Positions 1 to 33,580 of a DNA stretch of 38,441 bases are shown here, piece by piece (within the stretch, counting starts at the first letter, position 1; each line of letters begins with the position of its first letter). Origin of the DNA: an uncultured Clostridia bacterium (lineage in GTDB: Bacteria; Bacillota; Peptococcia; Peptococcales; Peptococcaceae); contig CALXUG010000028.1 in the NCBI GenBank assembly GCA_944391625.1, forward strand, positions 1-38,441, given 5' to 3'. The notes beneath the pieces were generated by a model that saw only the letters and a list, made by a program, of their open reading frames with translations, was not told where the DNA came from and did not search any database. The position numbers and the translations under genes are program-made.

Positions 1-530
1 GTAAATCGCACTGGTAATCGTTTGATAATAAACGCTGGTAACTCTGTACAATCTCTGCCCCACTGTTTTTCGGTATACCCTTTCACCAATTTTTGATAAA
101 TATCTGTACCCACTAAAGACAGCGCCTGTTCTTCTAAGTTCTTTGGCTCAGTAATATTTAATTCCGCAATCTGTTCAGCAATCTTCGTTTTTGCTTCCGC
201 CGGTGTACGAATCCCCCATATTTTACTGAATGTATTCATATTAAATGGCATATTGTACAATTCATCTTTATACACTGCAATCGGAGAATTCACATAATGA
301 TTGAATACTGCAAACTGGTTAATATAGTCCCATACAGCCTGATTACTGGTATGAAAAATATGAGCACCATATTTATGCACATGGATGCCCTCTATCTGTT
401 CCGTGTAAATATTGCCACCAATATGGCTACGGCGATCTATTACTAAACAATGCTTACCACACTTTTTCGCTTCATAAGCAAACACTGCACCATATAAACC
501 CGCTCCAACTATTAAATAATCGTACTGCAT
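1..530 (-). CDS. glf: UDP-galactopyranose mutase, N-terminal part (cut by window edge)
   Basis: The enzyme interconverts UDP-galactopyranose and UDP-galactofuranose, using reduced FAD in the cytoplasm, to supply Galf for surface glycans. The visible 176 codons begin MQYDYLIVGAGLYGAVFAYE, an FAD-binding Rossmann GxGxxG motif. They continue through RRSHIGGNIYTEQIEGIHVH and YGAHIFHTSN, the Glf signature with the flavin-adjacent histidine, and later GYTEKQWG. The C-terminal half lies beyond the left edge. The downstream position in a glycosyltransferase cluster that also holds galE fits a galactofuranose-containing polysaccharide. The gap to the next upstream gene is 26 bases, so it is probably in the same operon. 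The start ATG at 528-530 is the only sensible one because the Rossmann motif begins at once. Identification is secure. Confidence 0.95.
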   Translation of the reverse strand, partial: MQYDYLIVGAGLYGAVFAYEAKKCGKHCLVIDRRSHIGGNIYTEQIEGIHVHKYGAHIFHTSNQAVWDYINQFAVFNHYVNSPIAVYKDELYNMPFNMNTFSKIWGIRTPAEAKTKIAEQIAELNITEPKNLEEQALSLVGTDIYQKLVKGYTEKQWGRDCTELPAFIIKRLPVRF

Positions 531-556: not shown

Positions 557-3037
557 TTATTGAACTTCATTTGTTATTTTCGGAATACAGATTAACATTT
601 TTTCATAAACTGGGTCAAACGGATTATGATTTTCAACACGAAAACTATACCCCAATTTCCAAGACTCTATTAATGGCTTAATTAACAAAAAATCTTTAGC
701 TGTATGGTAAATAGATATACATAACACTGGTTTATATTCACGAATCGTCTTTTCTGCGCCCAGAACCGCATCATACTCTGTTCCTTCCACATCCATTTTT
801 ATAAAATGAGGATTTACGCCATATTTTGTCACCAAAGTATCAATCGTATAAACCTTTATAGCTAACTCACCATGCTTTTTATTTTCCGACTTAACGAGAC
901 TGCTTGACGAACCTTCACCATAGTAAAAATTCATACTATCTTGACAACCTACCGCTCCCCAAACCATTTTTACTTTATTTTCATCAACGTTATTTTTTTC
1001 CAGTACTGTTTTCATAGTATTAATATTATCTTTATTCATTTCAATACTATAAACAACTTTGCTTGTATAATCTTTAAGCACTAAGGCAGAATCTCCAATA
1101 AAACCACCCAAGTCTAAAATATCACCATTTCTTACAAAGTCCAAATATTGCTTCGATAACATTGTTAATCCATGTTTATAATAGAACACGGGTATCTCAT
1201 ACGTTGTTCCCTCAGGAAGCAAATATTTTGAAATAATAGATGTATACAAACGACATATCTCTTTCTGTTCACTTAGTTCACTTGCTGTAAATACAATATC
1301 CCTTTTCATTAAAAAAGCTTGTTTATCTGTGTAATCTGCATAGGGTATCATTTTAATATTACGCTCCCAAAGGATTTTTAAGTATTCTATATCCATCTCA
1401 GTTAAGCCTCTACATAAGTTGTTAAATTCTTCGGTACACTGCATATAATGTTCTATATAATATTGTTTAAAATTGTCTGACCACCACCAAGTATTTCCTT
1501 TAAAATATTCTGGATACTCACTAGGTATCCAAGTAGGATAATATCGAAGTAATGGATCTGAAGTTGTTCCCATAATTTTTTCATTAGAATCCAGATGATC
1601 TTTTATATTCCACGCTAACCACCAAATATCATTATTTTTTTTTTCATAAGTACTAATCATTTTTTCAAGATTATAAACGCTCTCTTTTAAAAATTCTTTT
1701 TCTACGCCTTGCGTCTGAGTAATATTTTTTAATTCCTGCTTTATTTCCTCTATCCTATCATCTAGCACTTTTAATGAATCTTGTAATTGATTTGTTTGTA
1801 CAATGTCTTTTAATTCTTGTTCAACTTTTTCTACCTTGTGATCCAATACCCTCAATATTTCTTGCAAATTTGTTGTTTGAGATGAATTACTATATATTTT
1901 GTTACTTTGCTCTACTAATAAATTCAAATTGGTATGTATATTAGTAATATACCAATAAAAATCATTTCTAAATATACGAATTTGATCTCTAATACTTACA
2001 GTTTGCTTTAACAAAGGCAGCTTTTTTAAAAAATTTTTTACACAATTCTGAATATTACGTCTTTTTTTTCTTGCTACTTTTTTTTCATACGCATCAATTT
2101 CTGGTATTGAAAGAAAAATCGGATCACTATCCACTATAAATGAATCTTTAGAACTTTGCAGTAATGATTTATCAAATTTATCTAAATAATTTGATACTGA
2201 ACGCAAATATTCATAATAATTTTTATCATTTTCATTAAAAACCCACCTACGTTCATATAATAGTCGAACTACAATTTTAGCAAACAGTCTTTCCTTCTCT
2301 TCTTGTGAATACATTTTATCAAACAATTCGGATATATACCTTAATATCTTAAAAATTTCTTTTTCACGACCACACGATTGAGTTGTTATACTATTTGGAC
2401 GTTGTTGGCGATAATAGTATAATGGTTCCCGAATATAAGAAAATTTTTTACAATAAGAAAAATATTCATAAAAAAATGTATGATCTTCATATAAAAGCCG
2501 CTCTTTAAATAATATTTTATATTTTTTTATTATTTCTGTTTTAAATAATTTATTCCAAGCACTTGGCCAAATGTCTGTTAATATTTGTCTATCTTCTTCA
2601 AGATTATATATCTCCTTCTTAGCCAATTCATCATAATGAAAAGCTGTGTGAGGAATGAATTTTTCATCCTTACCATAAGTAAGCATAACTCCACAAACTG
2701 CCACATCACTGTCATACTGCTTTAATGATTTATACAACTTTTCAAGCATAGTAGGAGCAACATAATCATCACTATCAATAAAAACTATATATTCTCCATT
2801 AGCATGTTTTACCCCTGTATTTCTAGCTCCCCCTAATCCTTTATTCTCCGTATGATTGAGCAACTTTATTCGTGAATCTTTTTCCCTGTATTCGTTAATA
2901 ATTGTTACGCTATTATCTAATGTACAGTCATTAATACAAAGTATCTCAATGTCCTTATAGCTTTGTTTTATAAGAGAATCTAAGCATTTTGCAATATATT
3001 CTTCAACATGATATACTGGTACTATTATTGAAATCAT
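557..3037 (-). CDS. GT2 glycosyltransferase - coiled coil - FkbM methyltransferase fusion
   Basis: This is a large (826 aa) cytoplasmic polysaccharide-modifying protein. It starts with a GT-A family 2 glycosyltransferase domain (about residues 1-230: ISIIVPVYHVEEYIAKCLDS, then FIDSDDYV as the DxD-type nucleotide-sugar site). A helical linker follows, and around residues 385-445 there is a coiled coil made of a duplicated unit (QEILRVLDHKVEKVEQELKD and QDSLKVLDDRIEEIKQELKN). The C-terminal part (about 630-800) is an FkbM-type SAM methyltransferase with GDILDLGGFIGDSALVL as the SAM-binding loop and IKMDVEGTEYDAV as the FkbM hallmark. ATG at 3035-3037 is preferred over the GTG two codons earlier, because GGAGAGGTG lies at the right distance. 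The acceptor sugar is unknown. A role in O-methylating and capping a surface glycan is inference. Confidence 0.85.
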   Translation of the reverse strand: MISIIVPVYHVEEYIAKCLDSLIKQSYKDIEILCINDCTLDNSVTIINEYREKDSRIKLLNHTENKGLGGARNTGVKHANGEYIVFIDSDDYVAPTMLEKLYKSLKQYDSDVAVCGVMLTYGKDEKFIPHTAFHYDELAKKEIYNLEEDRQILTDIWPSAWNKLFKTEIIKKYKILFKERLLYEDHTFFYEYFSYCKKFSYIREPLYYYRQQRPNSITTQSCGREKEIFKILRYISELFDKMYSQEEKERLFAKIVVRLLYERRWVFNENDKNYYEYLRSVSNYLDKFDKSLLQSSKDSFIVDSDPIFLSIPEIDAYEKKVARKKRRNIQNCVKNFLKKLPLLKQTVSIRDQIRIFRNDFYWYITNIHTNLNLLVEQSNKIYSNSSQTTNLQEILRVLDHKVEKVEQELKDIVQTNQLQDSLKVLDDRIEEIKQELKNITQTQGVEKEFLKESVYNLEKMISTYEKKNNDIWWLAWNIKDHLDSNEKIMGTTSDPLLRYYPTWIPSEYPEYFKGNTWWWSDNFKQYYIEHYMQCTEEFNNLCRGLTEMDIEYLKILWERNIKMIPYADYTDKQAFLMKRDIVFTASELSEQKEICRLYTSIISKYLLPEGTTYEIPVFYYKHGLTMLSKQYLDFVRNGDILDLGGFIGDSALVLKDYTSKVVYSIEMNKDNINTMKTVLEKNNVDENKVKMVWGAVGCQDSMNFYYGEGSSSSLVKSENKKHGELAIKVYTIDTLVTKYGVNPHFIKMDVEGTEYDAVLGAEKTIREYKPVLCISIYHTAKDFLLIKPLIESWKLGYSFRVENHNPFDPVYEKMLICIPKITNEVQ

Positions 3038-3051
3038 ATGCACCTCTCCAA

Positions 3052-4353
3052 TTATATAAAATGATACTCTTTATATATTTGATTAATTAACGCTTGATAT
3101 CGCGCCGCAAATAAAGCAGGAGTAAAATTTTCATCATATGCCTGCTTGACCTTTTGACTTACCTGTTCCAAGTTATTCTTATCCATTTTGCTTAATTTAA
3201 CGATTTTTTCTGCTAAATCTTTTAAAGTATTATCATATAAAAATAAAGCGTTAGTCATCGCCTGTACAGATTTGTTTCCCCCTGTAGCAGAAGCTATAAT
3301 TGGAACTCCTATCGACATAACTTCCAGTAAAACCAAATCATAATAAGTCATTCTATTGGGCAAGACAAATACATCTATAGCTCTAAATAACTCAGCAGGA
3401 TTGACCCATCCTGCTTCTATCCATCTATCATGTTTTAACGGGTCAAAAGTTTTTCCTTGAGAGCCCCCTATCAAAAAACAGATATCCTCATTTTGTGGTA
3501 ATATGTTTTTCGCCGCCTCTTTTAAAATATCATATCCTTTTATCTCGTTATGCCGACCAACATACCCTATAACAAACTTTCCTTCCACACCATACTTTTT
3601 TTTAGCTTCTTCTTTATCTAATTTTGATAACAATTTTTTTGCGCCTGTAGCAACAAACCGAATATCTTTGTTTTTAATAATATTTTCAAAACCTACCATA
3701 GTCTCTTTCAACGGTTCCATTGCTTCTTTACTAGGAAATACTAATATATCCGCACTTTCGAAAGCTCTTTGTTCAACTAGACTCCAACCCTTTCTAATTT
3801 CTTCAGCTCTACTCCTATTGTGTCCTTCTTCTAAATAAACTTTATAATATTCATTTGATGCCACTTCTGGAGTATGACAAGTTAGCATTATTTTTATTTC
3901 CTTATTTCCCATTTTATCCAATGAATTTCGTACTTTTACAGCATCACCAACTGTATGAACATGAATCGTCTTTGTATGTTGAAAGTCTATTTTTTCAAAT
4001 AATGTTGAATTACAGTACATTTCTTGATAATTATTTAAAAAATCTACATAAGACTCATGATTTCTTTTTTGATATTGAGAAATGTGATTAATATAGAATG
4101 CTTTTAAGGCATCTGTTTTATAAAAAATTGCATGCGCTATTTTATGAATTAATTTGGGTTCTTCTTGCAACGCAACTGGTTTCTTTTCAGTGTTATCAAA
4201 AAAAATAAGTGGATTATTACTATCCGATAAATTCAGACCTTCTCTTAGATTTGCTAAATATCCTGTTGGTCCTCCGGCTCTAATATCTAAATGCCATTCA
4301 TAATAAATAATATGGTATAACTTCTGAAAATCATATTCATTTAAATTGATCAT
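3052..4353 (-). CDS. GT4-family glycosyltransferase
   Basis: This is a 433-residue GT-B glycosyltransferase. The C-terminal half carries the Glycos_transf_1 fold: VIGYVGRHNEIKGYDILKEA, then FLIGG, and AIDVFVLPNRMTYYDLVLLE followed by VMSIGVPIIASATGG, where the usual ExG(F/Y)...E loop is recognisable but altered. The N-terminal acceptor domain includes EWHLDIRAGGPTGYLANLRE. The sugar donor and acceptor cannot be read from sequence. It is AT-rich like its downstream neighbour and lies 14 bases upstream of the GT2-FkbM start, so it is probably cotranscribed. AGGAGAA precedes the ATG at 4351-4353. Confidence 0.85.
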   Translation of the reverse strand: MINLNEYDFQKLYHIIYYEWHLDIRAGGPTGYLANLREGLNLSDSNNPLIFFDNTEKKPVALQEEPKLIHKIAHAIFYKTDALKAFYINHISQYQKRNHESYVDFLNNYQEMYCNSTLFEKIDFQHTKTIHVHTVGDAVKVRNSLDKMGNKEIKIMLTCHTPEVASNEYYKVYLEEGHNRSRAEEIRKGWSLVEQRAFESADILVFPSKEAMEPLKETMVGFENIIKNKDIRFVATGAKKLLSKLDKEEAKKKYGVEGKFVIGYVGRHNEIKGYDILKEAAKNILPQNEDICFLIGGSQGKTFDPLKHDRWIEAGWVNPAELFRAIDVFVLPNRMTYYDLVLLEVMSIGVPIIASATGGNKSVQAMTNALFLYDNTLKDLAEKIVKLSKMDKNNLEQVSQKVKQAYDENFTPALFAARYQALINQIYKEYHFI

Positions 4354-4389: not shown

Positions 4390-5391
4390 TTACTTAATGC
4401 TATAGCATTGCCATCTCCAAGTATCTCTGCACATATCCTCAACATTTTTTTCAGCTGCCCAGCACAATTCATTTTTTGCTTTTTCTACACCTGCATAACA
4501 TTCTGCAATATCACCAGCGCGTCTGCCTACAATTTGATATGGAACTTTCACTTGATTCACTTTTTCAAAAGTGGTCACCAATTCCAGTACACTTGTACCT
4601 CTGCCTGTGCCTAAATTATAGATATAAACACCAGCATTTTTTTCTAACTGTTCAATCGCTTTTACATGACCTTTGGCTAAATCAACTACATGAATATAAT
4701 CTCTCACGCCAGTACCATCACTCGTTGGATAATCATTGCCAAATATTTTTAATTTAGACAATTTGCCACTCGCAACCTGACTGATATAAGGCATTAAATT
4801 ACTGGGAATCCCTTCTGGATCTTCTCCAATTAATCCACTTTCATGAGCGCCAATCGGATTAAAATAACGCAACAAAGATACCGCATAATCCGGATGTGCA
4901 ACAATAAAATCTTGTAAGATTCTCTCACCAATTACTTTAGATTCCCCATAAGGATTTGTCGCAGGTAATAACGGCATATCTTCTGTAAATGGAACTTCAT
5001 TGTCGCCATACACAGTAGCAGATGAGCTAAAAACCATCTTTTTCACATTATATTTTTTCATCATCTCACAAAGCATTAGAGTGCAATTTAAATTATTCTG
5101 ATAATACTCTATTGGCTGTTCTACCGATTCCCCTACAGCCTTTAACCCTGCAAAATGAATAATGCCATCTATTTTGTTTTCCATAAAAACTGGTTCAATT
5201 TCGCTTTTAACAGAAATATTCACTAAATAAAATGGTATCTTTTGTCCAATAATTTGTTCTGTACGATAAACAGCATCCATTTTACTATTACATAAATTAT
5301 CCGCAATAATAACTTCATATCCAGCTTGTATCAATTCCACGCAAGTATGAGTACCGATATAACCCGCTCCTCCTGCTACTAAGACTTTCAT
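4390..5391 (-). CDS. galE: UDP-glucose 4-epimerase
   Basis: The enzyme interconverts UDP-glucose and UDP-galactose in the cytoplasm with bound NAD. The 333-residue length is normal for GalE. The N-terminus MKVLVAGGAGYIGTHTCVEL holds the GxxGxxG NAD-binding motif. The catalytic SDR residues are in VFSSSATVYG (Ser) and NPYGESKVIGE (YxxxK). LLRYFNPIGAHESGLIGEDP and GTGVRDYIHVVDLAKGHV are hallmark GalE segments. Together with glf in the same cluster, it would provide the UDP-Galp that Glf turns into UDP-Galf. That supports a galactose/galactofuranose-containing surface polymer. A further galE elsewhere in the genome is possible. Confidence 0.95.
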   Translation of the reverse strand: MKVLVAGGAGYIGTHTCVELIQAGYEVIIADNLCNSKMDAVYRTEQIIGQKIPFYLVNISVKSEIEPVFMENKIDGIIHFAGLKAVGESVEQPIEYYQNNLNCTLMLCEMMKKYNVKKMVFSSSATVYGDNEVPFTEDMPLLPATNPYGESKVIGERILQDFIVAHPDYAVSLLRYFNPIGAHESGLIGEDPEGIPSNLMPYISQVASGKLSKLKIFGNDYPTSDGTGVRDYIHVVDLAKGHVKAIEQLEKNAGVYIYNLGTGRGTSVLELVTTFEKVNQVKVPYQIVGRRAGDIAECYAGVEKAKNELCWAAEKNVEDMCRDTWRWQCYSIK

Positions 5392-5421
5392 ACAATAACC
5401 TCTTTCTTTATCATTACCTAG

Positions 5422-7662
5422 TTATCTAAATATCCGATTCAGCTTCAACTTAAACGCAACCTTAATAATACGCTGTCCCCATTTACTACTGGCAATTCGC
5501 ATTAACTCTGATTTCGTACCACTATCATATTGATTACTGAATACGGCAGCATGATTTTCTACTTCCTGATAGATGGTTCCATAATCCTCTGCCCAATTTC
5601 CTAGCGCTATTATCTGTTTTTGTTTTTCCAATCGTTGTTCTTTTTGCTCTTTATCTTGTACAGCTTGACTAAAAATCTGCTCTAACTTATGAATCATAAT
5701 CTCACTGGAGAATGCTTCTTCGATTCTATTACGGCAGTTTTTGCTAAGCTGCATATATCGTTCTTTATCCTGCAAGATATCTACAATAGCATCTACATAC
5801 GCCTGTACCTCATGAGCAGAAAATTCTCTATTATCTAAATCGCTTTCTTCGTCCTGCTCTAACGGAATAATTCTTCCCACAGTATCACCAATTAATTCTT
5901 TCTGACCGCCTACATCACTACTTACCACCGGCACTTCCATAGATAAGGATTCATAGGCCGTTAGTGCCAATCCCTCTTTCAGCGAACAAATCAAGGCAAT
6001 ATCCGCATCTTTATAGTATGGCAGCATATCTTCCGCTTGGCCTGCAAAATATACCGTTTGTTCCAACTGTTTTTCCTTGCAAACCTTCTGCAATTCTTCC
6101 AACTGAGGGCCATCTCCCACTGCCACAAATGCAATATTGGAAATTTTCTTTCTCACTTGTCGGGCAATCTCCAACATCAAAAATGGCCGTTTCTGAGGGT
6201 GCATGCGGCATGGAAATAATACAACTGGTCTAGTTTCAACAATCTGCAACTGTTCTCTTACAACTCCTGCTTCCACGTTGTTTGCATCATATTTTTCCGT
6301 ATCCACACCAATGTACAAGGTTTCCACACTATCCGGCTGACGGTTGAAATCATTTATCAACACTTGTCTAGTTCTTTCATTGCACACATAGGTTTTCTCT
6401 AAAATATTCCCCATAACACCGGATGTTCTGGCATATCCACCATTTCTCCAATACCATTCTTCCATATGCACATAATCTAAAATCACCAGGTCAGGAAAGT
6501 TTTTTCTTAACCACGGCACTAAATAATAGCCATAGTAAGAGTTGGTCAAAAACAATACATCGATTTCCCTGCTCTTAATAAAATAACTGATAAACTCTGC
6601 ATAGTTTTCTTGCTCTAAAAAAGAAGGTAGTTCAAACATATCCGTTACATATTCTTCAAACCGCTGCCGCCAGATGCTTTCCCCTGGCACAGTTGTCAGT
6701 ATACTCATTTCAAATTTTTCTTTGTCAATTTTGCGCACTATATTCAGATTAAATAAATCTGCTCCGCCCATTTCCATCCACGGAATCAACATCATTACAT
6801 GAATCTTGTCATGGGTTTGAAATACTTTTCTATCAAAATTACTGTATACCGGCTTCTTAAACTGATTTGGCTTCCCTGCACATGGATATTCTTTTGCTTC
6901 AACAACACCTTTCACGGTTGAAGCTGCTTCAGTTATTAATTTTTGTGCTTTTTCTCTTATCTCTTTATCATTTTTTACTATGGATAAAACTCCGGTATCG
7001 TTTCTTCTATACCAGAAACCATAATTGTTTATATGTACAGGATACTCTTGTTGTCCCAACAAAATCAGCCACATATACCAATCTTCATTAAAGTGTTTTT
7101 CACCTTCAAGATAATATCCAGCTTTTTCTATTGCTGATTTTCTTATGCCAGCTGTACATACTAAAATATTATTAACTTTCATATACTCAGAAGAAAATTG
7201 TTTCTTCCACAAATACTCTTGTGTACCAAATCCTAAACTATCTGTATAACACCAAGCTGCATCTGGATTAAAATACATACCCCAGTAAATAAGTTCTATA
7301 TATGTTGCTTCTATCAAATCGTCTGCATCTAATGGAATAATGATGTCCGTATTACTTTCTTTAATCCCTCTATTTCTAGCGGTCGATATCCCACCATTCA
7401 CTTTATGATAAACCTTGATCCGATTATCTTTTGCTGCGAATTCTTCCAGCAATGCTACATCTTCTTGCTTAGTGCTGCCATCATTCACAATAATCCATTC
7501 AAACCATGGAAATGTCTGATTCAACACACAGTTATAGGTCTGTTCAAAATAGGTTCCGGCATTATAATATGGGGTAATGATACTAACCAATGGTCGTCCT
7601 TCTGTATTTAATTTTCTTTCCAACAGTTTTTTGCCTGGTTCTTTGCTGTAATCAAAACCCAT
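5422..7662 (-). CDS. Two-domain GT2-GT4 glycosyltransferase
   Basis: This is a 746-residue protein with two catalytic modules. The N-terminal GT2 (GT-A) module has VSIITPYYNAGTYFEQTYNC, IIVNDGST, GGISTARNRGIKES and IIPLDADDLIE as the DxD-like site. The C-terminal GT4 (GT-B) module has VVLFPCRMHPQKRPFLMLEI, FVAVGDGPQLEELQ, YYKDADIALICSLKEGLALT and AYESLSMEVPVVSSDVGG. Two transferases on one chain often make a repeat unit or adaptor disaccharide; that role is inference. An in-frame start 29 codons upstream would overlap the ABC ATPase gene. GGAGGAG sits just before the ATG at 7660-7662, so this start is chosen. The gap to the ABC gene is 14 bases, indicating one transcript. Confidence 0.88.
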   Translation of the reverse strand: MGFDYSKEPGKKLLERKLNTEGRPLVSIITPYYNAGTYFEQTYNCVLNQTFPWFEWIIVNDGSTKQEDVALLEEFAAKDNRIKVYHKVNGGISTARNRGIKESNTDIIIPLDADDLIEATYIELIYWGMYFNPDAAWCYTDSLGFGTQEYLWKKQFSSEYMKVNNILVCTAGIRKSAIEKAGYYLEGEKHFNEDWYMWLILLGQQEYPVHINNYGFWYRRNDTGVLSIVKNDKEIREKAQKLITEAASTVKGVVEAKEYPCAGKPNQFKKPVYSNFDRKVFQTHDKIHVMMLIPWMEMGGADLFNLNIVRKIDKEKFEMSILTTVPGESIWRQRFEEYVTDMFELPSFLEQENYAEFISYFIKSREIDVLFLTNSYYGYYLVPWLRKNFPDLVILDYVHMEEWYWRNGGYARTSGVMGNILEKTYVCNERTRQVLINDFNRQPDSVETLYIGVDTEKYDANNVEAGVVREQLQIVETRPVVLFPCRMHPQKRPFLMLEIARQVRKKISNIAFVAVGDGPQLEELQKVCKEKQLEQTVYFAGQAEDMLPYYKDADIALICSLKEGLALTAYESLSMEVPVVSSDVGGQKELIGDTVGRIIPLEQDEESDLDNREFSAHEVQAYVDAIVDILQDKERYMQLSKNCRNRIEEAFSSEIMIHKLEQIFSQAVQDKEQKEQRLEKQKQIIALGNWAEDYGTIYQEVENHAAVFSNQYDSGTKSELMRIASSKWGQRIIKVAFKLKLNRIFR

Positions 7663-7676
7663 ATTACTATCTCCTC

Positions 7677-8408
7677 CTACTGATTCATATAAGCGGCACA
7701 AACATCCAGAATATCTCCATACATTACCTGCTTGCCCTTTTCCAGCCATAAAGCATGCTTACATAATTTTTCAACTTGTTGTATTGAGTGGGAAACAAAC
7801 AGTACTGTCGCACCAGTGGCAACAATTTCATTAATTCGTTTTTCACATTTTTCCTGAAATTTATAGTCCCCTACACCCAAAACTTCATCCACAATCAAAA
7901 TATCCGGTATATGTGCTGTAGCAATGGAAAATCCCAAACGGGCGACCATCCCTGAAGAATAGTTTTTTAACGGAACATCCACAAAATCCCACAACTCCGC
8001 AAAGTCTAAAATACTTTCCGCTTTTTTATCCATCTCTGTTCGACTATAACCCAATACTGCGCCATTAAGATAAATATTTTCCCGGGCAGATAAGTCCATA
8101 TCAAAGCCAGCACCCAATTCAATCATAGGTGCTACACTACCATGTACTTTTATAGTTCCCTTGGTTGGTTTCATCACACCAGCAATAATCTTTAGCAAAG
8201 TACTTTTGCCGCTGCCATTCAAACCAACAATACCAACAGCATCCCCTTTTTCAATGGTTAAGCTAATATTTTTTAAAGCCCAAAACTCCTCAAACATCAA
8301 TTGATGCTTCACCAAACGCACAAAATATTCTTTAATACTGTCCACTTTTTCTGAGCTTTTATTAAACATAATGGACACATCTTGTACTTCAATAATTGGC
8401 TGCGCCAT
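7677..8408 (-). CDS. Polysaccharide ABC exporter, ATP-binding subunit (Wzt/KpsT/TagH-like)
   Basis: This subunit powers export of a lipid-linked polysaccharide across the inner membrane together with the permease encoded just upstream. Motifs in order are Walker A GIVGLNGSGKSTLLKIIAGV, an ABC signature in LKNYSSGMVARLGFSIA, and Walker B with DILIVDEVLGVGD, followed by the switch histidine in LFVSHS. At 243 residues it lacks the C-terminal carbohydrate-binding domain of long Wzt proteins, so chain-length and cap recognition must lie elsewhere. The frame is open a little further upstream (TTG at 8421-8423, ATG at 8412-8414). ATG at 8406-8408 has the best spacing from GAGGAG and is used here. 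Confidence 0.9.
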   Translation of the reverse strand: MAQPIIEVQDVSIMFNKSSEKVDSIKEYFVRLVKHQLMFEEFWALKNISLTIEKGDAVGIVGLNGSGKSTLLKIIAGVMKPTKGTIKVHGSVAPMIELGAGFDMDLSARENIYLNGAVLGYSRTEMDKKAESILDFAELWDFVDVPLKNYSSGMVARLGFSIATAHIPDILIVDEVLGVGDYKFQEKCEKRINEIVATGATVLFVSHSIQQVEKLCKHALWLEKGKQVMYGDILDVCAAYMNQ

Positions 8409-8419
8409 ATCCATACTCC

Positions 8420-9205
8420 TCAAATATATAAAATGAATTTGTCCTGTCTTTTATAAAAGAAGATCAGACCAATGATTAAAAAAAATAAGCTAATACCCAA
8501 ACAAGTTAAATTTTCAGCAAGGCTGGGTATTGTCTGATATAGGGTAATATCTCTCATATAAGAAATGTAATGATACATGGGATTTAATGTTAAAAACCAA
8601 TGAGATTTTTCTGCCAATAACGATACCGGATAAAAAATCGGTGTCAGATACATCCAAGCCATTGTAAAAACCCCATACAAATGGGCAATATCTCGAAAAA
8701 ACACCATCATAGCTGCTAAAATCAACCCCAAACCAATTGAAAATAACATCACATAAAAAACAACTATCGGTGTTAATAACATTGTTAAATGAAATTCTAC
8801 TCCTGTAGCTATCATAACAAGCAGCATTGCAATATAGGAAAAAAATAGGTTTACACCACTGGAAAGTACTTTAGATACAGGAAAAATATATTTTGGAATA
8901 TACACTTTTTTTATTAAACTGGCGCCACCTAAAATAGATTGCAATGCATCTGAAGTAGCTGTAACCATAAAACTAAAAATAATATTTCCACAAAAAAAAT
9001 AAATTGGAAAATGTTCTATTTCAAAGCGGAATAATGTCGAAAATACAATTGTCATAACAATCATCATTAAAATAGGGTTCAAAATTGTCCATAAAACGCC
9101 TAACACACTGCGTCGGTAACGCACTTTAATATCTCTTATTACCAGTTCATACAGTAAATTTTTATATTTCATAAAGCCCTGTATACTACCCGCTATTTGT
9201 CTCAT
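8420..9205 (-). CDS. Polysaccharide ABC exporter, ABC-2 type permease (Wzm/TagG-like)
   Basis: This is a 261-residue ABC-2 membrane protein with about six hydrophobic segments. The N-terminal amphipathic region YELVIRDIKVRYRRSVLGVLW is characteristic of Wzm/TagG/KpsM permeases. The segments LNPILMMIVMTIVFSTLF, FFCGNIIFSFM and AWMYLTPIFYPVSLL also match the family pattern. It forms the channel for lipid-linked glycan export and pairs with the ATPase that starts 11 bases after its stop. TAGGAGGAATT precedes the ATG at 9203-9205. The substrate is not determined by sequence. Confidence 0.9.
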   Translation of the reverse strand: MRQIAGSIQGFMKYKNLLYELVIRDIKVRYRRSVLGVLWTILNPILMMIVMTIVFSTLFRFEIEHFPIYFFCGNIIFSFMVTATSDALQSILGGASLIKKVYIPKYIFPVSKVLSSGVNLFFSYIAMLLVMIATGVEFHLTMLLTPIVVFYVMLFSIGLGLILAAMMVFFRDIAHLYGVFTMAWMYLTPIFYPVSLLAEKSHWFLTLNPMYHYISYMRDITLYQTIPSLAENLTCLGISLFFLIIGLIFFYKRQDKFILYI

Positions 9206-9217
9206 AATTCCTCCTAC

Positions 9218-10306
9218 TTATAATATCTGCATATAATACCGTTCCAGTTTTCTTGCTTCACTGGACAGATCCATTGTTTCTTTTACTGGTTCCGACAATT
9301 GTCTATCATAACCAAAATTCATTTTCTTTTTTCGCAACCAATTTAACCAACCTTTTTTATCCTTTAAAGAACAAAATTGTACTTTCTCCGACAAAGCTAC
9401 TTCCTCGGTTATAGTATCTGCTAAAATGCACTCCAACCCGTTGGCCTGTGCTTCTAACGCAACCATTGGCAAACCTTCAAATAAGGAGGGCAACAAAAAC
9501 ACATCCATTGCGCTCAGATAAGATGTAATGTCTTTTTGTGCGCCAACAAAAAATACAACAGATTCCAATTGTTTCTCCTGTACCATATTTTGAATCTCTG
9601 ATTCCAATGAGCCATCTCCTACCAATAGCAATCGACTGTCTGGATGTTCTTGGTAAAACACGGCAAACAATTCAATTAAAAATCTATGATTCTTTTGCTT
9701 TTGAAAACGTCCTACATGACCAACCACAAAACTATCTTGTAAACCTAATGCACAACGAAGTTTTTTCCGTCGCTCCGCATCATAAACATATTGCTGACAA
9801 TCTACTAAATTACGCAAAATATACACAGGTTGTTTTTTTCCATATAAAAAATCTGCTGCTGCTTGTGAACAGGCCATTTTTTTTACTGGCAAAATTTTTA
9901 GAGGTGCACATAATATTGCATTACGGATCGCAGATAACAATTTATCTGAGTATTTTGTTAAATGCGCATGTACAATTACATCAGATATCCCAAAGTGCTT
10001 GGCAAGTGGATATAGCAATACCGTTAAATAACTCTCATGATTATGCAGCCAAATATATTCCCTGCCATGTTGCTGAAAAAAATGATGCAGTTCTTTCAAG
10101 CTATGAAACGATATACTCGGTTTAGAAACAAAATAAACGTTCCCACCCAAAGCTATAATTTCATCTTGATAGGAATCATCACTCTTTACAAAATATAAAA
10201 AATCAAATTGAACTTTATCACGATCAATTTTGTAGTAGTAATTCATAAGAACCCGCATGACGCCGCTGTTACGGTTTAATGTGGACACAAATTGCAAAAC
10301 ACGCAT
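9218..10306 (-). CDS. GT4-family glycosyltransferase
   Basis: This is a 362-residue GT-B enzyme resembling EpsF-type transferases. The N-terminus MRVLQFVSTLNRNSGVMRVL is the usual acceptor-side opening with its glycine loop. The C-terminal donor domain shows FVVGHVGRFQKQKNHRFLIE, LLLVGDGSLESEIQ, FFVGAQKDITSYLSAMDVFL and LPSLFEGLPMVALEAQANGL, which contains the FEGLP..ALEAQ nucleotide-sugar loop. It sits between the GT2 gene (4-base gap upstream) and the ABC permease, so it is part of the export/assembly operon. Donor and acceptor are unknown. Confidence 0.88.
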   Translation of the reverse strand: MRVLQFVSTLNRNSGVMRVLMNYYYKIDRDKVQFDFLYFVKSDDSYQDEIIALGGNVYFVSKPSISFHSLKELHHFFQQHGREYIWLHNHESYLTVLLYPLAKHFGISDVIVHAHLTKYSDKLLSAIRNAILCAPLKILPVKKMACSQAAADFLYGKKQPVYILRNLVDCQQYVYDAERRKKLRCALGLQDSFVVGHVGRFQKQKNHRFLIELFAVFYQEHPDSRLLLVGDGSLESEIQNMVQEKQLESVVFFVGAQKDITSYLSAMDVFLLPSLFEGLPMVALEAQANGLECILADTITEEVALSEKVQFCSLKDKKGWLNWLRKKKMNFGYDRQLSEPVKETMDLSSEARKLERYYMQIL

Positions 10307-10310
10307 ACTG

Positions 10311-11096
10311 TCAGTTCACACCCCTGCCATACTTCTTCCACCCATTAATTGCATACTGCGCAAAATACCAACCGGACTTGCCCACGCCATAGCCCAGATA
10401 ACGGCGATACACCTGCCAGCGGCCTTGGGCGGCTTTCAACTTATTGGCAGAACGGCTGGTTTGTGCCAGTCGATAACCGGTCAGGCATTTGTTCAGCACA
10501 CAGCCTTTGGCTCCGGCCTGCAGCAGTGTCAGCCAGTACACGTAGTCCTCATGGGCATAGCTACCATCCATCAAATATTGCTTGGCCACTGCACTGCGCA
10601 GCAATACGGAAGAACAGCAAATATAGTTTTCTTTTAACAGGTCGGGCAATAAAATTTGCTGCTGTGCAATCATACGATTTTTCATGCGCTGGCCATCTTC
10701 CGTTATCATAGCATAGGCGGTGCAGCAAAAATCGTAGCCGGTCTGCTCCAGCAATGCAACCTGCTGCTCCAGCTTGTTGCTGTGCCAGGTGTCATCACTG
10801 TCCAAAAAGGCAATATACTGTCCTTGGGCCAAGGCAATGCCCTGATTGCGCACTGCTGCTACTCCCTGATTGGCAGGGTTGCAGATTACATGCACGCGGC
10901 TATCCTTTTGTGCCCAACGCTGCAGCAAAGCAACGCTGCCGTCCACAGAGCCGTCATCAATGGCCAGCAATTCAAAATCTTCTAAGGTTTGCTGCAACAC
11001 GGAACTTATGGTGCGGTTTAAATACCGTTGGCTGTTATATACCGGCAAAATCACTGTACATATTCTCTTTTTGGTGATATTTATCCCGTTATTCAT
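10311..11096 (-). CDS. GT2-family glycosyltransferase
   Basis: This is a 261-residue GT-A enzyme, probably the first gene of the polysaccharide operon. It has ICTVILPVYNSQRYLNRTIS at the N-terminus, LLAIDDGSVDGSVALL, GVAAVRNQGIALAQGQYIAF and LDSDDTW (DxD metal/nucleotide site), then a variable acceptor domain with YAHEDYVYWLTLLQAGAK. By eye its base composition is clearly richer in GC (many CTG/CAG/GCC codons) than the genes further down the operon. It therefore looks like host-type sequence bordering a more AT-rich, exchangeable cassette. A CGGAG sequence precedes the ATG at 11094-11096. Confidence 0.88.
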   Translation of the reverse strand: MNNGINITKKRICTVILPVYNSQRYLNRTISSVLQQTLEDFELLAIDDGSVDGSVALLQRWAQKDSRVHVICNPANQGVAAVRNQGIALAQGQYIAFLDSDDTWHSNKLEQQVALLEQTGYDFCCTAYAMITEDGQRMKNRMIAQQQILLPDLLKENYICCSSVLLRSAVAKQYLMDGSYAHEDYVYWLTLLQAGAKGCVLNKCLTGYRLAQTSRSANKLKAAQGRWQVYRRYLGYGVGKSGWYFAQYAINGWKKYGRGVN

Positions 11097-11610: not shown

Positions 11611-12747
11611 ATGACAACCACAAACACAACCAACCAATATTTCTACCAAAACCAGCAGGATCAATATACCTTCTACCGCATTCCCAAAGCGTTAATCAAA
11701 GGGGTGCGCTATCAGCATGTTAGCATGGAAGCCAAATTATTGTACGGCATTTTGCTGGACCGCATGAGTTTGTCCTGTAAAAATGACTGGTGCGATGCCA
11801 GCGGTAAAGTTTTTATCATTTACACTTTAGAAGAACTGATGGAAGACTTTAGCTGTTCCGACAAAACTGCCACCAAATTGTTGCGGGAACTGGAACAGAG
11901 CGATTTGATTGTGCGTCGGCGGCAGGGATTGGGCAAGCCCAGTCTGATTTATGTGAAACACATTCAGCAGAGTGAACCGGTAATATCCAAGCGTCGGCTC
12001 AGAAAGCAGCAGCAACGGCAGAGCGGAACCATGTATCGGGCATACAGCTGCACAAACAATCCAACAGAAAGAATTGCTGATGATGCAAAAGCATCTAACA
12101 ATGACCAGATGCAGAAAAATAACGATTATCAAATAGAAAAACGAATCAATAATCAAACAAATAATGGGACAAATAGTAATCATACAGCAAGCCAAAATGA
12201 CAGCACTGCTTTTGTTACAGACCATGAACAGAATAACCAGCAGGCACAACCATGCCCGGTGAGTCGTAAAAATTCCGATTCCGGACACGGAACTTTTACG
12301 ACTCTGGATACGGAAAATGTACGAGGTAATAAGACTGAGAGAAGTTATACTGAGCGAAATAAAAAAGAGGAGGGGGAGGCTGCGCCCCGCAGCTGGAAAA
12401 ATATTGTGCAAGAGCAATTGGAATATGACTGGCTGTTAGAAAGTTATCCACACAACCAGTCTGCCATCAAGACGATGGTGACTATCATTGCTGATGCCAT
12501 GAACAGTGACGATAATGCAGTGGTAAAAGTAGGCGGCAGAGAGCGCCGCATGGATGATGTCAAAGAACAATTATTACAACTGGACAGCGGTCATATTGAG
12601 TATGTATTGGAATATTTGCAATGCAATACCAGCAAGGTGCAGAATGTGTACGGCTATTTACTGACCATCTTGTACAATGCGCCGTTGACTATGGATTTGT
12701 ATTATGAAAAACTGGTGCATCATGACCAGGCCAAGAAAAGACGGTAG
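11611..12747 (+). CDS. repA: Plasmid-type replication initiator RepA (RepA_N N-terminus, DUF6017-like C-terminus)
   Basis: This 378-residue protein resembles RepA initiators of Firmicutes plasmids and integrative elements. The N-terminal winged-helix domain (about residues 15-125) reads YTFYRIPKALIKGVRYQHVS, AKLLYGILLDRMSLSCKNDW, YTLEELMEDFSCSDKTATKL and SLIYVKH. A polar Asn/Gln-rich linker follows (about 130-260). The C-terminal domain (about 265-370) has IVQEQLEYDWLLESYP, RMDDVKEQLLQLDSGHIEYV and VYGYLLTILYNAPLTMDLYY. A strong CAGGAGGAGA precedes the ATG, which fixes the start. It is one of the few plus-strand genes and has no partition, relaxase or integrase neighbours here. It could be a chromosomal relic of an integrated replicon or a domesticated gene. 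The family call is confident; its activity is not. Confidence 0.85.
   Translation: MTTTNTTNQYFYQNQQDQYTFYRIPKALIKGVRYQHVSMEAKLLYGILLDRMSLSCKNDWCDASGKVFIIYTLEELMEDFSCSDKTATKLLRELEQSDLIVRRRQGLGKPSLIYVKHIQQSEPVISKRRLRKQQQRQSGTMYRAYSCTNNPTERIADDAKASNNDQMQKNNDYQIEKRINNQTNNGTNSNHTASQNDSTAFVTDHEQNNQQAQPCPVSRKNSDSGHGTFTTLDTENVRGNKTERSYTERNKKEEGEAAPRSWKNIVQEQLEYDWLLESYPHNQSAIKTMVTIIADAMNSDDNAVVKVGGRERRMDDVKEQLLQLDSGHIEYVLEYLQCNTSKVQNVYGYLLTILYNAPLTMDLYYEKLVHHDQAKKRR
12261..12304. repeat. 17-bp inverted repeat inside the repA linker (candidate internal origin)
   Basis: Arms GAGTCGTAAAAATTCCG (12261-12277) and CGGAACTTTTACGACTC (12288-12304) are complementary except for one position, around a 10-base centre. 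They fall in the non-conserved linker of RepA, encoding the VSRKNSDSGHGTFTTLD region. In characterised RepA_N plasmids, initiator-binding repeats and the origin commonly lie in this part of the rep gene. That makes this the best candidate site for RepA binding. Confidence 0.6.
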
Positions 12748-26714: not shown

Positions 26715-27058
26715 TTGTTTGTAATGTTCCATCGCCGGGAGACTGTTTGTTGCCTGCCCTCCTTCACCGGACATCTGCTTGTATGTCTGCCTCACTTTGG
26801 ACTGCGTCCAGTTCGGTCAGACAGACTGCGCAACTGTCCGTTTCAATGTCGACAACGGCAACAAAACATCTCCCTGACTTACGCATACAAGGCTGGCCTA
26901 TCCTTTGCCAAAATTCCGAATTGCAGCGGTCATTTTTGCAGACTGTCTAAATCGTGGCAGACGCAGTCTGACTAAGATAGACAGTCAATAAAATGTCCGA
27001 AGCGCTGAGGGAGCGGCAAAGATAGGACAGCCGACCATACGACTTTCACACGAAACAT
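26715..27058. repeat. Dispersed structured intergenic repeat, copy A
   Basis: About 340 bases match copy B at 33165-33580 closely, differing by scattered substitutions, a 21-base absence near 26764 and a diverged section at about 26933-27000. Internal inverted repeats include GGCTGGCCTATCCTTTGCC (26891-26909) with GGCAAAGATAGGACAGCC (27015-27032). Others are CGGACAT (26768-26774) with ATGTCCG (26993-26999), GACTGTCT with AGACAGTC around 26941-26987, and a CAGAC-GCA-GTCTG hairpin inside it. The right end ACTTTCACACGAAACA (about 27041-27056) resembles a decayed parS. No protein domain is recognised in either strand. Confidence 0.8.
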
Positions 27059-33164: not shown

Positions 33165-33580
33165 ATTTTGTTTGCAATGCTCCATCGTCGGGAGACTGTT
33201 TGTTGCCTGCCCTCCTACCCGACCAGAAAGGCGTCGTTCACCGGACACCTGCTTGTCGGTCAGCCTCACTTTGGACTGTGTCCAGTTCGGCTAGACAGAC
33301 TGCGCATCTGTCCGTTTCAATCTCGACAACGGCAACAAAACATCTCCCTGGGTTGCGTGCATAAGGCTGGCCTATCCTTTGCCAAAATTCTGAATTGCGG
33401 CGGTCAGCAACGCAGTTTGTTTTCATTGAGCTGGACGCAGTCCATAGCGAAAGAAACAAACAAGTTGGTGTCCACCGCACTGAAGGATAGGCAAAGATAG
33501 GACAGCCGACCACATACTCCTTGGACAGGAGATAGTCCAAGATAGGACAGCCGACCACACAATCTTTCGCATGAAACAGT
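33165..33580. repeat. Dispersed structured intergenic repeat, copy B
   Basis: This is the longer copy of the element at 26715-27058. Conserved stems are GGCTGGCCTATCCTTTGCC (33365-33383) with GGCAAAGATAGGACAGCC (33490-33507), and GGACACC (33243-33249) with GGTGTCC (33467-33473). A GTTTGTTTTC/GAAACAAAC stem (about 33414-33462) encloses a TGGAC-GCA-GTCCA hairpin. Copy B also has a 20-bp direct repeat AGATAGGACAGCCGACCACA at 33495-33514 and 33540-33559, separated by a CTTGGAC/GTCCAAG hairpin. The right end TCTTTCGCATGAAACA matches parS at 13 of 16 positions. Open frames in it show no recognisable domain. Confidence 0.8.

Follow-up and report, generated by a model that had tools for sequence, protein, structure and literature searches.

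A 38,441-nucleotide stretch of DNA from an uncultured Clostridia bacterium (contig CALXUG010000028.1, positions 1 to 38,441; hereafter the window) carries on its minus strand, at 3037..557, a fusion gene whose 826-amino-acid product joins a family 2 glycosyltransferase (GT2), a basic amphipathic helix, a coiled coil and an FkbM O-methyltransferase. Our analysis suggests, with a probability that we put at about 50%, that this protein is a membrane-tethered GT2/O-methyltransferase capping a galactofuranose (Galf)-related wall glycan that is exported by an ATP-binding cassette (ABC) transporter. In the proposed scheme the fusion would be a cytosolic bifunctional enzyme, whose basic helix would anchor the GT2 to the membrane, close to the lipid-linked chain to which the GT2 would add sugar. 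The coiled coil would oligomerise the protein and keep the FkbM module a few nanometres off, and FkbM would O-methylate the non-reducing end of the chain, leaving a cap at which growth stops. The scheme would be that of WbdD, Klebsiella pneumoniae O7 ORF6 and WsaE with the N-to-C polarity reversed. If the protein affects chain length at all, it would do so by halting elongation or through docking between synthase and exporter.

The gene is a single unbroken frame from an ATG at 3037 to a stop at 557-559, and an in-frame GTG at 3043 offers an alternative start. A fusion of GT2, coiled coil and FkbM had been proposed here by the first-pass annotation, and Pfam and NCBIfam matches at both ends, with a heptad-rich linker between them, bore this out. 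The GT2 catalytic module occupies residues 3-151 (2585..3031) and belongs to the family by its PF00535 match (Pfam, E 7.7e-42); the conserved acidic residues D90 and D91 are present. In the AlphaFold model the predicted local distance difference test score (pLDDT) exceeds 90 over residues 1-120 in ten-residue means, and a GT2-type fold with additional helices reaches to about residue 290. PDB matches of this module include TarS-annotated and GalT1 GT2s; the TarS entry is 5tze. At the other end, the FkbM module covers residues 601-826 (560..1237) and was assigned to its family by profile, conserved residues and fold: TIGR01444 matches residues 640-776 (NCBIfam, E 1.8e-20), PF05050 matches residues 658-790 (Pfam, E 2e-12), and the family-conserved residues are intact. 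A model of residues 300-826 had pLDDT values of 93-98 across most of the methyltransferase core, and the best PDB fold for the module was the FkbM structure 2py6 (Z 17.8; root-mean-square deviation 2.2 over 174 residues). The model used for this fold comparison was built from a clean partial alignment (A4), and A4 and a further alignment (A5) were supplied to the models; the first, mixed alignments (A2 and A3) were dropped, as they placed GT2 tails on FkbM columns. These features support the prediction that both catalytic modules are intact and competent. The segment between the coiled-coil-like stretch and FkbM, residues 455-600 (1238..1675), matches no recognised family and was modelled with low confidence.

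In the linker, residues 380-454 (1676..1900), about 75 residues, form a coiled-coil-like stretch with a heptad score of 0.825, compared with a maximum of 0.725 in 300 shuffles of the linker. This score is a simple heptad count and not DeepCoil; among 875 background open reading frames (ORFs) it reached at least 0.5 in 358 and at least 0.82 in 4, and coiled coils were called throughout at a threshold of 0.6 over at least 40 residues. Within the stretch lie two similar heptad units, found by self-match, at residues 391-417 (1787..1867) and 418-444 (1706..1786), identical at 14 of 27 positions. The self-match scored 90, while 300 linker shuffles reached at most 54; in the comparison preserving heptad phase it scored 88, while 500 shuffles reached at most 63, so the duplication is beyond chance. 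Hence the two units that had been described at first stand, while their period is 27 residues rather than about 30. At the DNA level the best-matching 45-codon stretch is only 56% identical, with third positions identical at 19 of 45, and no tandem array was called at the DNA of the units. Because the DNA copies differ so widely and form no tandem array, the duplication is old, neither recent nor slipping.

We surveyed Wzm/Wzt loci. The window Wzt as query gave 67 listed places (counted by eye) in 61 of 398 genomes of the phylum. The surveyed set of 65 comprised loci L198-L262 and the window, minus L223, whose Wzt was not re-detected at 1e-50; a second place in the window's own genome (contig C45) was read separately. 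Thirty of the 65 loci have a short Wzt and 35 a long one, "long" being defined by length, so that 22 of the 35 match a Wzt_C model built here and 13 do not; at the 30 short-Wzt loci no ORF matched that model. Proteins combining a methyltransferase and a coiled coil were found at 8 of the 30 short-Wzt loci, where the Wzt lacks a carbohydrate-binding module (CBM), and at 11 of the 35 long-Wzt loci. Among methyltransferase ORFs of at least 400 amino acids, 17 of 23 contained a coiled coil of 40 residues or more, against 15 of 302 non-methyltransferase ORFs, counts that lean towards such proteins since the methyltransferase model was trained on six of them from the same loci; without the six, the proportion was 11 of 17. 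Several of the proteins are large methyltransferase-coiled coil-glycosyltransferase proteins of the WsaE/O7 kind. In all eight genomes checked that pair a short Wzt with a methyltransferase-coiled-coil protein (the window genome and seven others) PF14524, the Wzt_C family, was absent. Methyltransferase-coiled-coil proteins are thus recurrent at Wzm/Wzt loci, including beside short, CBM-less Wzts.

The order of parts in these proteins also recurs. We scored 21 methyltransferase-coiled-coil proteins, namely the 19 from the survey together with L103 (a Lentisphaerota protein described below) and G360, for basic amphipathic segments, using a score of HeliQuest type and calling a segment at 1.9 or above within about 80 residues of a coiled-coil end. 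In 17 of the 21, counting one that is truncated by its contig end, a segment lay at the end distal to the methyltransferase; 2 of the 21 had one on the side facing it. Random windows gave 64 of 405. The highest score of the 21 belonged to the window protein (3.26), in a segment at residues 317-345 (2003..2089), between GT2 and coiled coil, with a net charge of +8 over residues 312-345. Contact of this segment with the membrane is possible. The layout of the window protein thus appears WbdD/O7-like, with N-to-C polarity reversed and a glycosyltransferase fused at the membrane end.

A similar association with exporters was found starting from the methyltransferase. Across the 398 phylum genomes, 75 listed FkbM matches (counted by eye) fell in 55 genomes. 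Six of these matches lay in open frames 500 amino acids or longer. The long frames examined were an FkbM-coiled coil protein (G324), a tetratricopeptide repeat-GT4-FkbM protein (G271), an FkbM-coiled coil-GT2 protein (G219) and the window protein; G266 encodes FkbM and a coiled coil with later GT4-like sequence, read by eye without a Pfam scan, and the G093 match has internal stops in its frame. A second census found FkbM in 200 of 350 genomes, and two frames of at least 500 amino acids among its listed matches (G693 and G616) showed no glycosyltransferase on reading by eye. The 19 ORFs that matched the GT2 part included none of a further 80 FkbM ORFs (the longest of 544 amino acids), GT4 fusions not having been searched for. 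Of 129 distinct FkbM ORFs from the collected loci, only 5 had a coiled coil, of 40 residues or more, lying outside the methyltransferase. For four of these five (G219, G420, G324 and L103) a Wzt lay nearby, as it did for 5 of the 82 named FkbM ORFs that lack a coiled coil (Fisher p 2.7e-4, for flanks that differ in length).

The window gene itself lies in an operon-like, same-strand run that encodes, in order, a TuaG-like GT2, a GT4, Wzm, Wzt, a GT2-GT4 protein, galE, a second GT4, the fusion and glf. The coordinates, all on the minus strand, are 10311..11096 for the TuaG-like GT2, which is 69% identical to the gene at the corresponding place in the cluster of a genus-mate (G001:C9); 9218..10306 for the first GT4 (PF00534); 8420..9205 for the Wzm/TagG-like permease (PF01061); 7677..8423 for the Wzt/TagH-like ATPase of 248 amino acids, without a CBM, identified by profile matches; 5422..7749 for the two-module GT2-GT4 glycosyltransferase (PF00535, PF00534); 4390..5391 for galE (TIGR01179, above cut-off); 3052..4353 for the second GT4 (PF13692, PF00534); and 3..530 for glf, encoding UDP-galactopyranose mutase (TIGR00031, 7.2e-56) and truncated at the end of the contig, whose full length is 38441 bases. 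The 775-amino-acid GT2-GT4 gene would overlap the Wzt gene by 73 bases (7677-7749) if it used its first ATG; its true start is probably later.

With regard to the glycan, the genome has glf at the ends of two contigs (window 1-524, and 1-524 of C45, locus L096), the two copies being 91.6% identical. On C45 there is also a further exporter cluster, in which two proteins give weak matches to GlfT2 and which includes an FrhB-pyruvyltransferase fusion. Together these data suggest that the glycan is a galactofuranan and that the assembly broke where glf is repeated. A 378-amino-acid gene upstream of the window cluster (11611-12747) likewise has a near copy (88-93% nucleotide identity) adjoining the second exporter cluster on C45. 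Elsewhere in the window, 26736-27058 and 33234-33512 are 82-87% identical to one region of contig C38 and represent a dispersed repeat of about 300 bases. The comparison drawn at first was with ABC-exported O antigens; a lipopolysaccharide setting was not supported, for LpxC was not found in any of the 46 class genomes searched, the window's own (96.2% complete) included, and four control genomes were positive. Given this absence and the presence of two LytR-CpsA-Psr proteins, the exported product is more likely to be a glycan of the wall or the S-layer than an O antigen.

Several observations weigh against the capping function proposed above. The first-pass annotation had noted that the Wzt-like ATPase lacks a glycan-binding domain, and this was confirmed: the window Wzt gave no Wzt_C/PF14524 match in a scan that detected a control Wzt at 2.6e-29, and PF14524 was not found anywhere in the window's own genome. 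In all the terminated O-antigen examples cited in PMC11231755, a CBM on Wzt reads the cap. Since the window Wzt has none, it probably does not read the cap. The basic helix may simply be part of the GT2, as 34 of 76 GT2-only ORFs carry a segment scoring at least 1.9 after the catalytic half, with only 2 of the 76 reaching 3.2. For the FkbM-coiled-coil protein of G360, no Wzt lay in the 19.9 kb examined. The coiled coil is short, at about 75 residues, and its unit spacing of 27 is one less than four heptads and thus out of heptad phase (27 mod 7 = 6). In both AlphaFold models, at low confidence, the helix is broken at residues 416-417 and at about 442-447. Finally, no full-length orthologue of the fusion was found with full-length and C-terminal queries in 60 relatives or in the 46 class genomes (E <= 1e-15); matches in the 398 phylum genomes were limited to the FkbM part, with one extending back to residue 551, no place in plasmids and phages covered 80% of the query, and the genome-contig and viral-contig searches gave no full-length relative and a single weak GT2 match among viral contigs.

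The CBM-less exporter gives weight to another reading, which we consider a genuine possibility at odds short of even, namely that the protein is an ordinary decorating enzyme. The GT2 would then add a repeat-unit or side-chain sugar, FkbM would methylate that same sugar, and the heptad stretch would merely dimerise or space the two; chain length would follow from the transporter-to-synthase ratio, as in K. pneumoniae O2a. As described in PMC11231755, O2a-type exporters have no CBM and export without a terminator, length being coupled to stoichiometry, and the pyruvate of O1 is an end modification without length control. A short, out-of-phase coiled coil would suit such an enzyme equally. Two findings suggest more than a simple linker: the order of methyltransferase, coiled coil and basic helix recurs at exporter loci, and few other FkbM proteins have a coiled coil.

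A chance or broken fusion, or a misassembly that joined two genes without joint function, was also considered and is very improbable. In its favour, the 60 relatives yielded no orthologue. The fusion gene has a GC content of 29%, whereas the distal part of the contig has 43%; this suggests that the gene is acquired cargo, and a recent acquisition would fit a chance event. Against this, 826 codons are uninterrupted, GC is uniform through the three parts of the gene (28-32%), and both active-site sets are intact.

A stronger form of the capping reading, and one compatible with it, takes the coiled coil as a true molecular ruler whose length sets the modal chain length, with the heptad units as length modules. 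The mirror-image match to the WbdD/O7 order of parts speaks for it, as do the in-phase tandem repeats of 14, 21 or 35 residues in several exporter-linked comparators (three others have none). In the window protein, by contrast, the repeat is of 27 residues, in two copies only and old at the DNA level, about 75 residues compare with a WbdD spacing of about 200 Å (PMC5082667), and the genome holds no CBM reader. Structure prediction of an extended coiled coil had been set at the outset as the check on this point; both models showed two distinct helices, spanning about 386-415 and 418-442, with a break after each and pLDDT of about 50-75, and a continuous extended coiled coil was not supported by them. 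As the models are of low confidence and were made without homologues, such a coiled coil may nevertheless form. We consider a ruler unlikely and, the stretch being short and out of phase unlike the in-phase comparators, the weakest step of the mechanism. Of the earlier suggestion of a capping or length-control factor of different build, the capping half remains reasonable, in view of the 8 of 30 short-Wzt loci and the mirrored WbdD-like parts; an extended ruler was not supported.

Three comparator loci bear on these points in their own right. In L090 (G324:C64, 4440-6092) FkbM is followed by many tandem 35-residue coiled-coil repeats that run off the contig, and the gene adjoins Wzm and a CBM-bearing Wzt; as a candidate for an FkbM-type ruler this protein is clearer than that of the window. 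L210 (G350:C2, 10139-14116) encodes a methyltransferase-coiled coil-GT2-WsaF-like protein with in-phase 14-residue repeats, directly following a 243-amino-acid CBM-less Wzt in a genome without PF14524. In L240 (G218:C5, 10960-14481) a weak sulfotransferase match precedes a coiled coil with 14-residue repeats, a GT2 and a GT4, beside a long Wzt; this protein is possibly a sulfate-capping counterpart.

More generally, the accepted scheme, as given in PMC11231755, ties chain termination to a cap-reading CBM on Wzt. The methyltransferase-coiled-coil proteins beside CBM-less exporters would mean that caps can act unread, or else that these proteins have another function, and the window protein is a compact, reversed-polarity case on which the two may be compared. 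We offer, as a doubtful proposal, that enzymes made of methyltransferase, coiled coil and basic helix, in either polarity and with FkbM as one cap module, end chains for CBM-less Wzm/Wzt exporters in bacteria without lipid A. If so, the synthase complex itself, rather than recognition of the cap, would determine chain length, and the window protein would be a mirror-image, GT2-fused member of the class.

Among the loci compared in detail, the exporter of G219 is the closest relative (Wzt 63% and Wzm 56% identical). Its FkbM-coiled coil-GT2 protein of 732 amino acids shares with the window protein an FkbM module, a coiled coil, a basic helix, a GT2 and a locus with a CBM-less Wzt. However, its parts run in the opposite polarity (FkbM-coiled coil-basic helix-GT2), and its FkbM matches a model of the window's relatives much more weakly. 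Wzts equally close occur in G021 (64%) and G212 (63%), with no FkbM protein detected in their examined loci. L103 (CP071032.1, Lentisphaerota bacterium zth2, 5038-6603, 522 amino acids) resembles the window protein in having a coiled coil before FkbM and an adjacent Wzm/Wzt, and its FkbM part is 31% identical; it differs in having no glycosyltransferase, long in-phase 21-residue repeats and a CBM-bearing Wzt one gene upstream. Homology of L103 to the segment upstream of the window FkbM was considered and not established, with a score of 36 against a shuffle mean of 30 and 71 of 500 shuffles as good. In the genus-mates G003 and G005, PF14524 is present, and each of the CBM-type Wzt loci has a methyltransferase gene nearby, without a coiled coil of 40 residues.

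Searches of the open full-text literature turned up no protein combining FkbM with a coiled coil and a glycosyltransferase, and the nearest described systems are the following. With K. pneumoniae O2a-type export the window shares a CBM-less Wzt, yet a methyltransferase-coiled-coil protein is present. WbdD (Escherichia coli O8/O9a; K. pneumoniae O3/O5) has a methyltransferase, a coiled coil and a far-end amphipathic helix beside Wzm/Wzt (PMC11231755, PMC3482155), a set of parts that the window protein appears to share; in WbdD they stand in the order catalytic sites, coiled coil, then a region with the amphipathic helix and a polymerase recruitment site (PMC11231755). It differs in its N-terminal methyltransferase (with a kinase in O9a), long coiled coil, lack of a fused glycosyltransferase, CBM-bearing Wzt and lipopolysaccharide glycan, whereas the window protein has a C-terminal FkbM-class methyltransferase, an N-terminal GT2 and a short, out-of-phase coiled coil, beside a CBM-less Wzt and in a genome where LpxC was not found. 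Of the WbdD-type features, the window locus thus has a methyltransferase module, of another class, and Wzm/Wzt in the same locus; it lacks the C-terminal CBM by which Wzt reads the cap. For this reason the window protein is not filed as a member of the WbdD family, and the chances that it nevertheless works like one are evenly balanced. In K. pneumoniae O7 ORF6, methyltransferase, coiled coil and GT2 are likewise found in one polypeptide at an ABC-export locus (PMC11231755), in the order methyltransferase-kinase-CBM-coiled coil-GT2-GT2, compared with GT2-coiled coil-FkbM and no kinase in the window. WsaE, of the S-layer glycan of the Gram-positive Geobacillus stearothermophilus, also unites methyltransferase and glycosyltransferase in one protein of a Wzm/Wzt system, its methyltransferase being assigned to a 2-O-methyl cap (PMC2943079); there an N-terminal methyltransferase precedes two glycosyltransferase modules, in contrast to the single N-terminal GT2 and C-terminal methyltransferase of the window. 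O7 ORF6 and WsaE are therefore characterised precedents for a methyltransferase and a glycosyltransferase within one capping protein (PMC11231755, PMC2943079).

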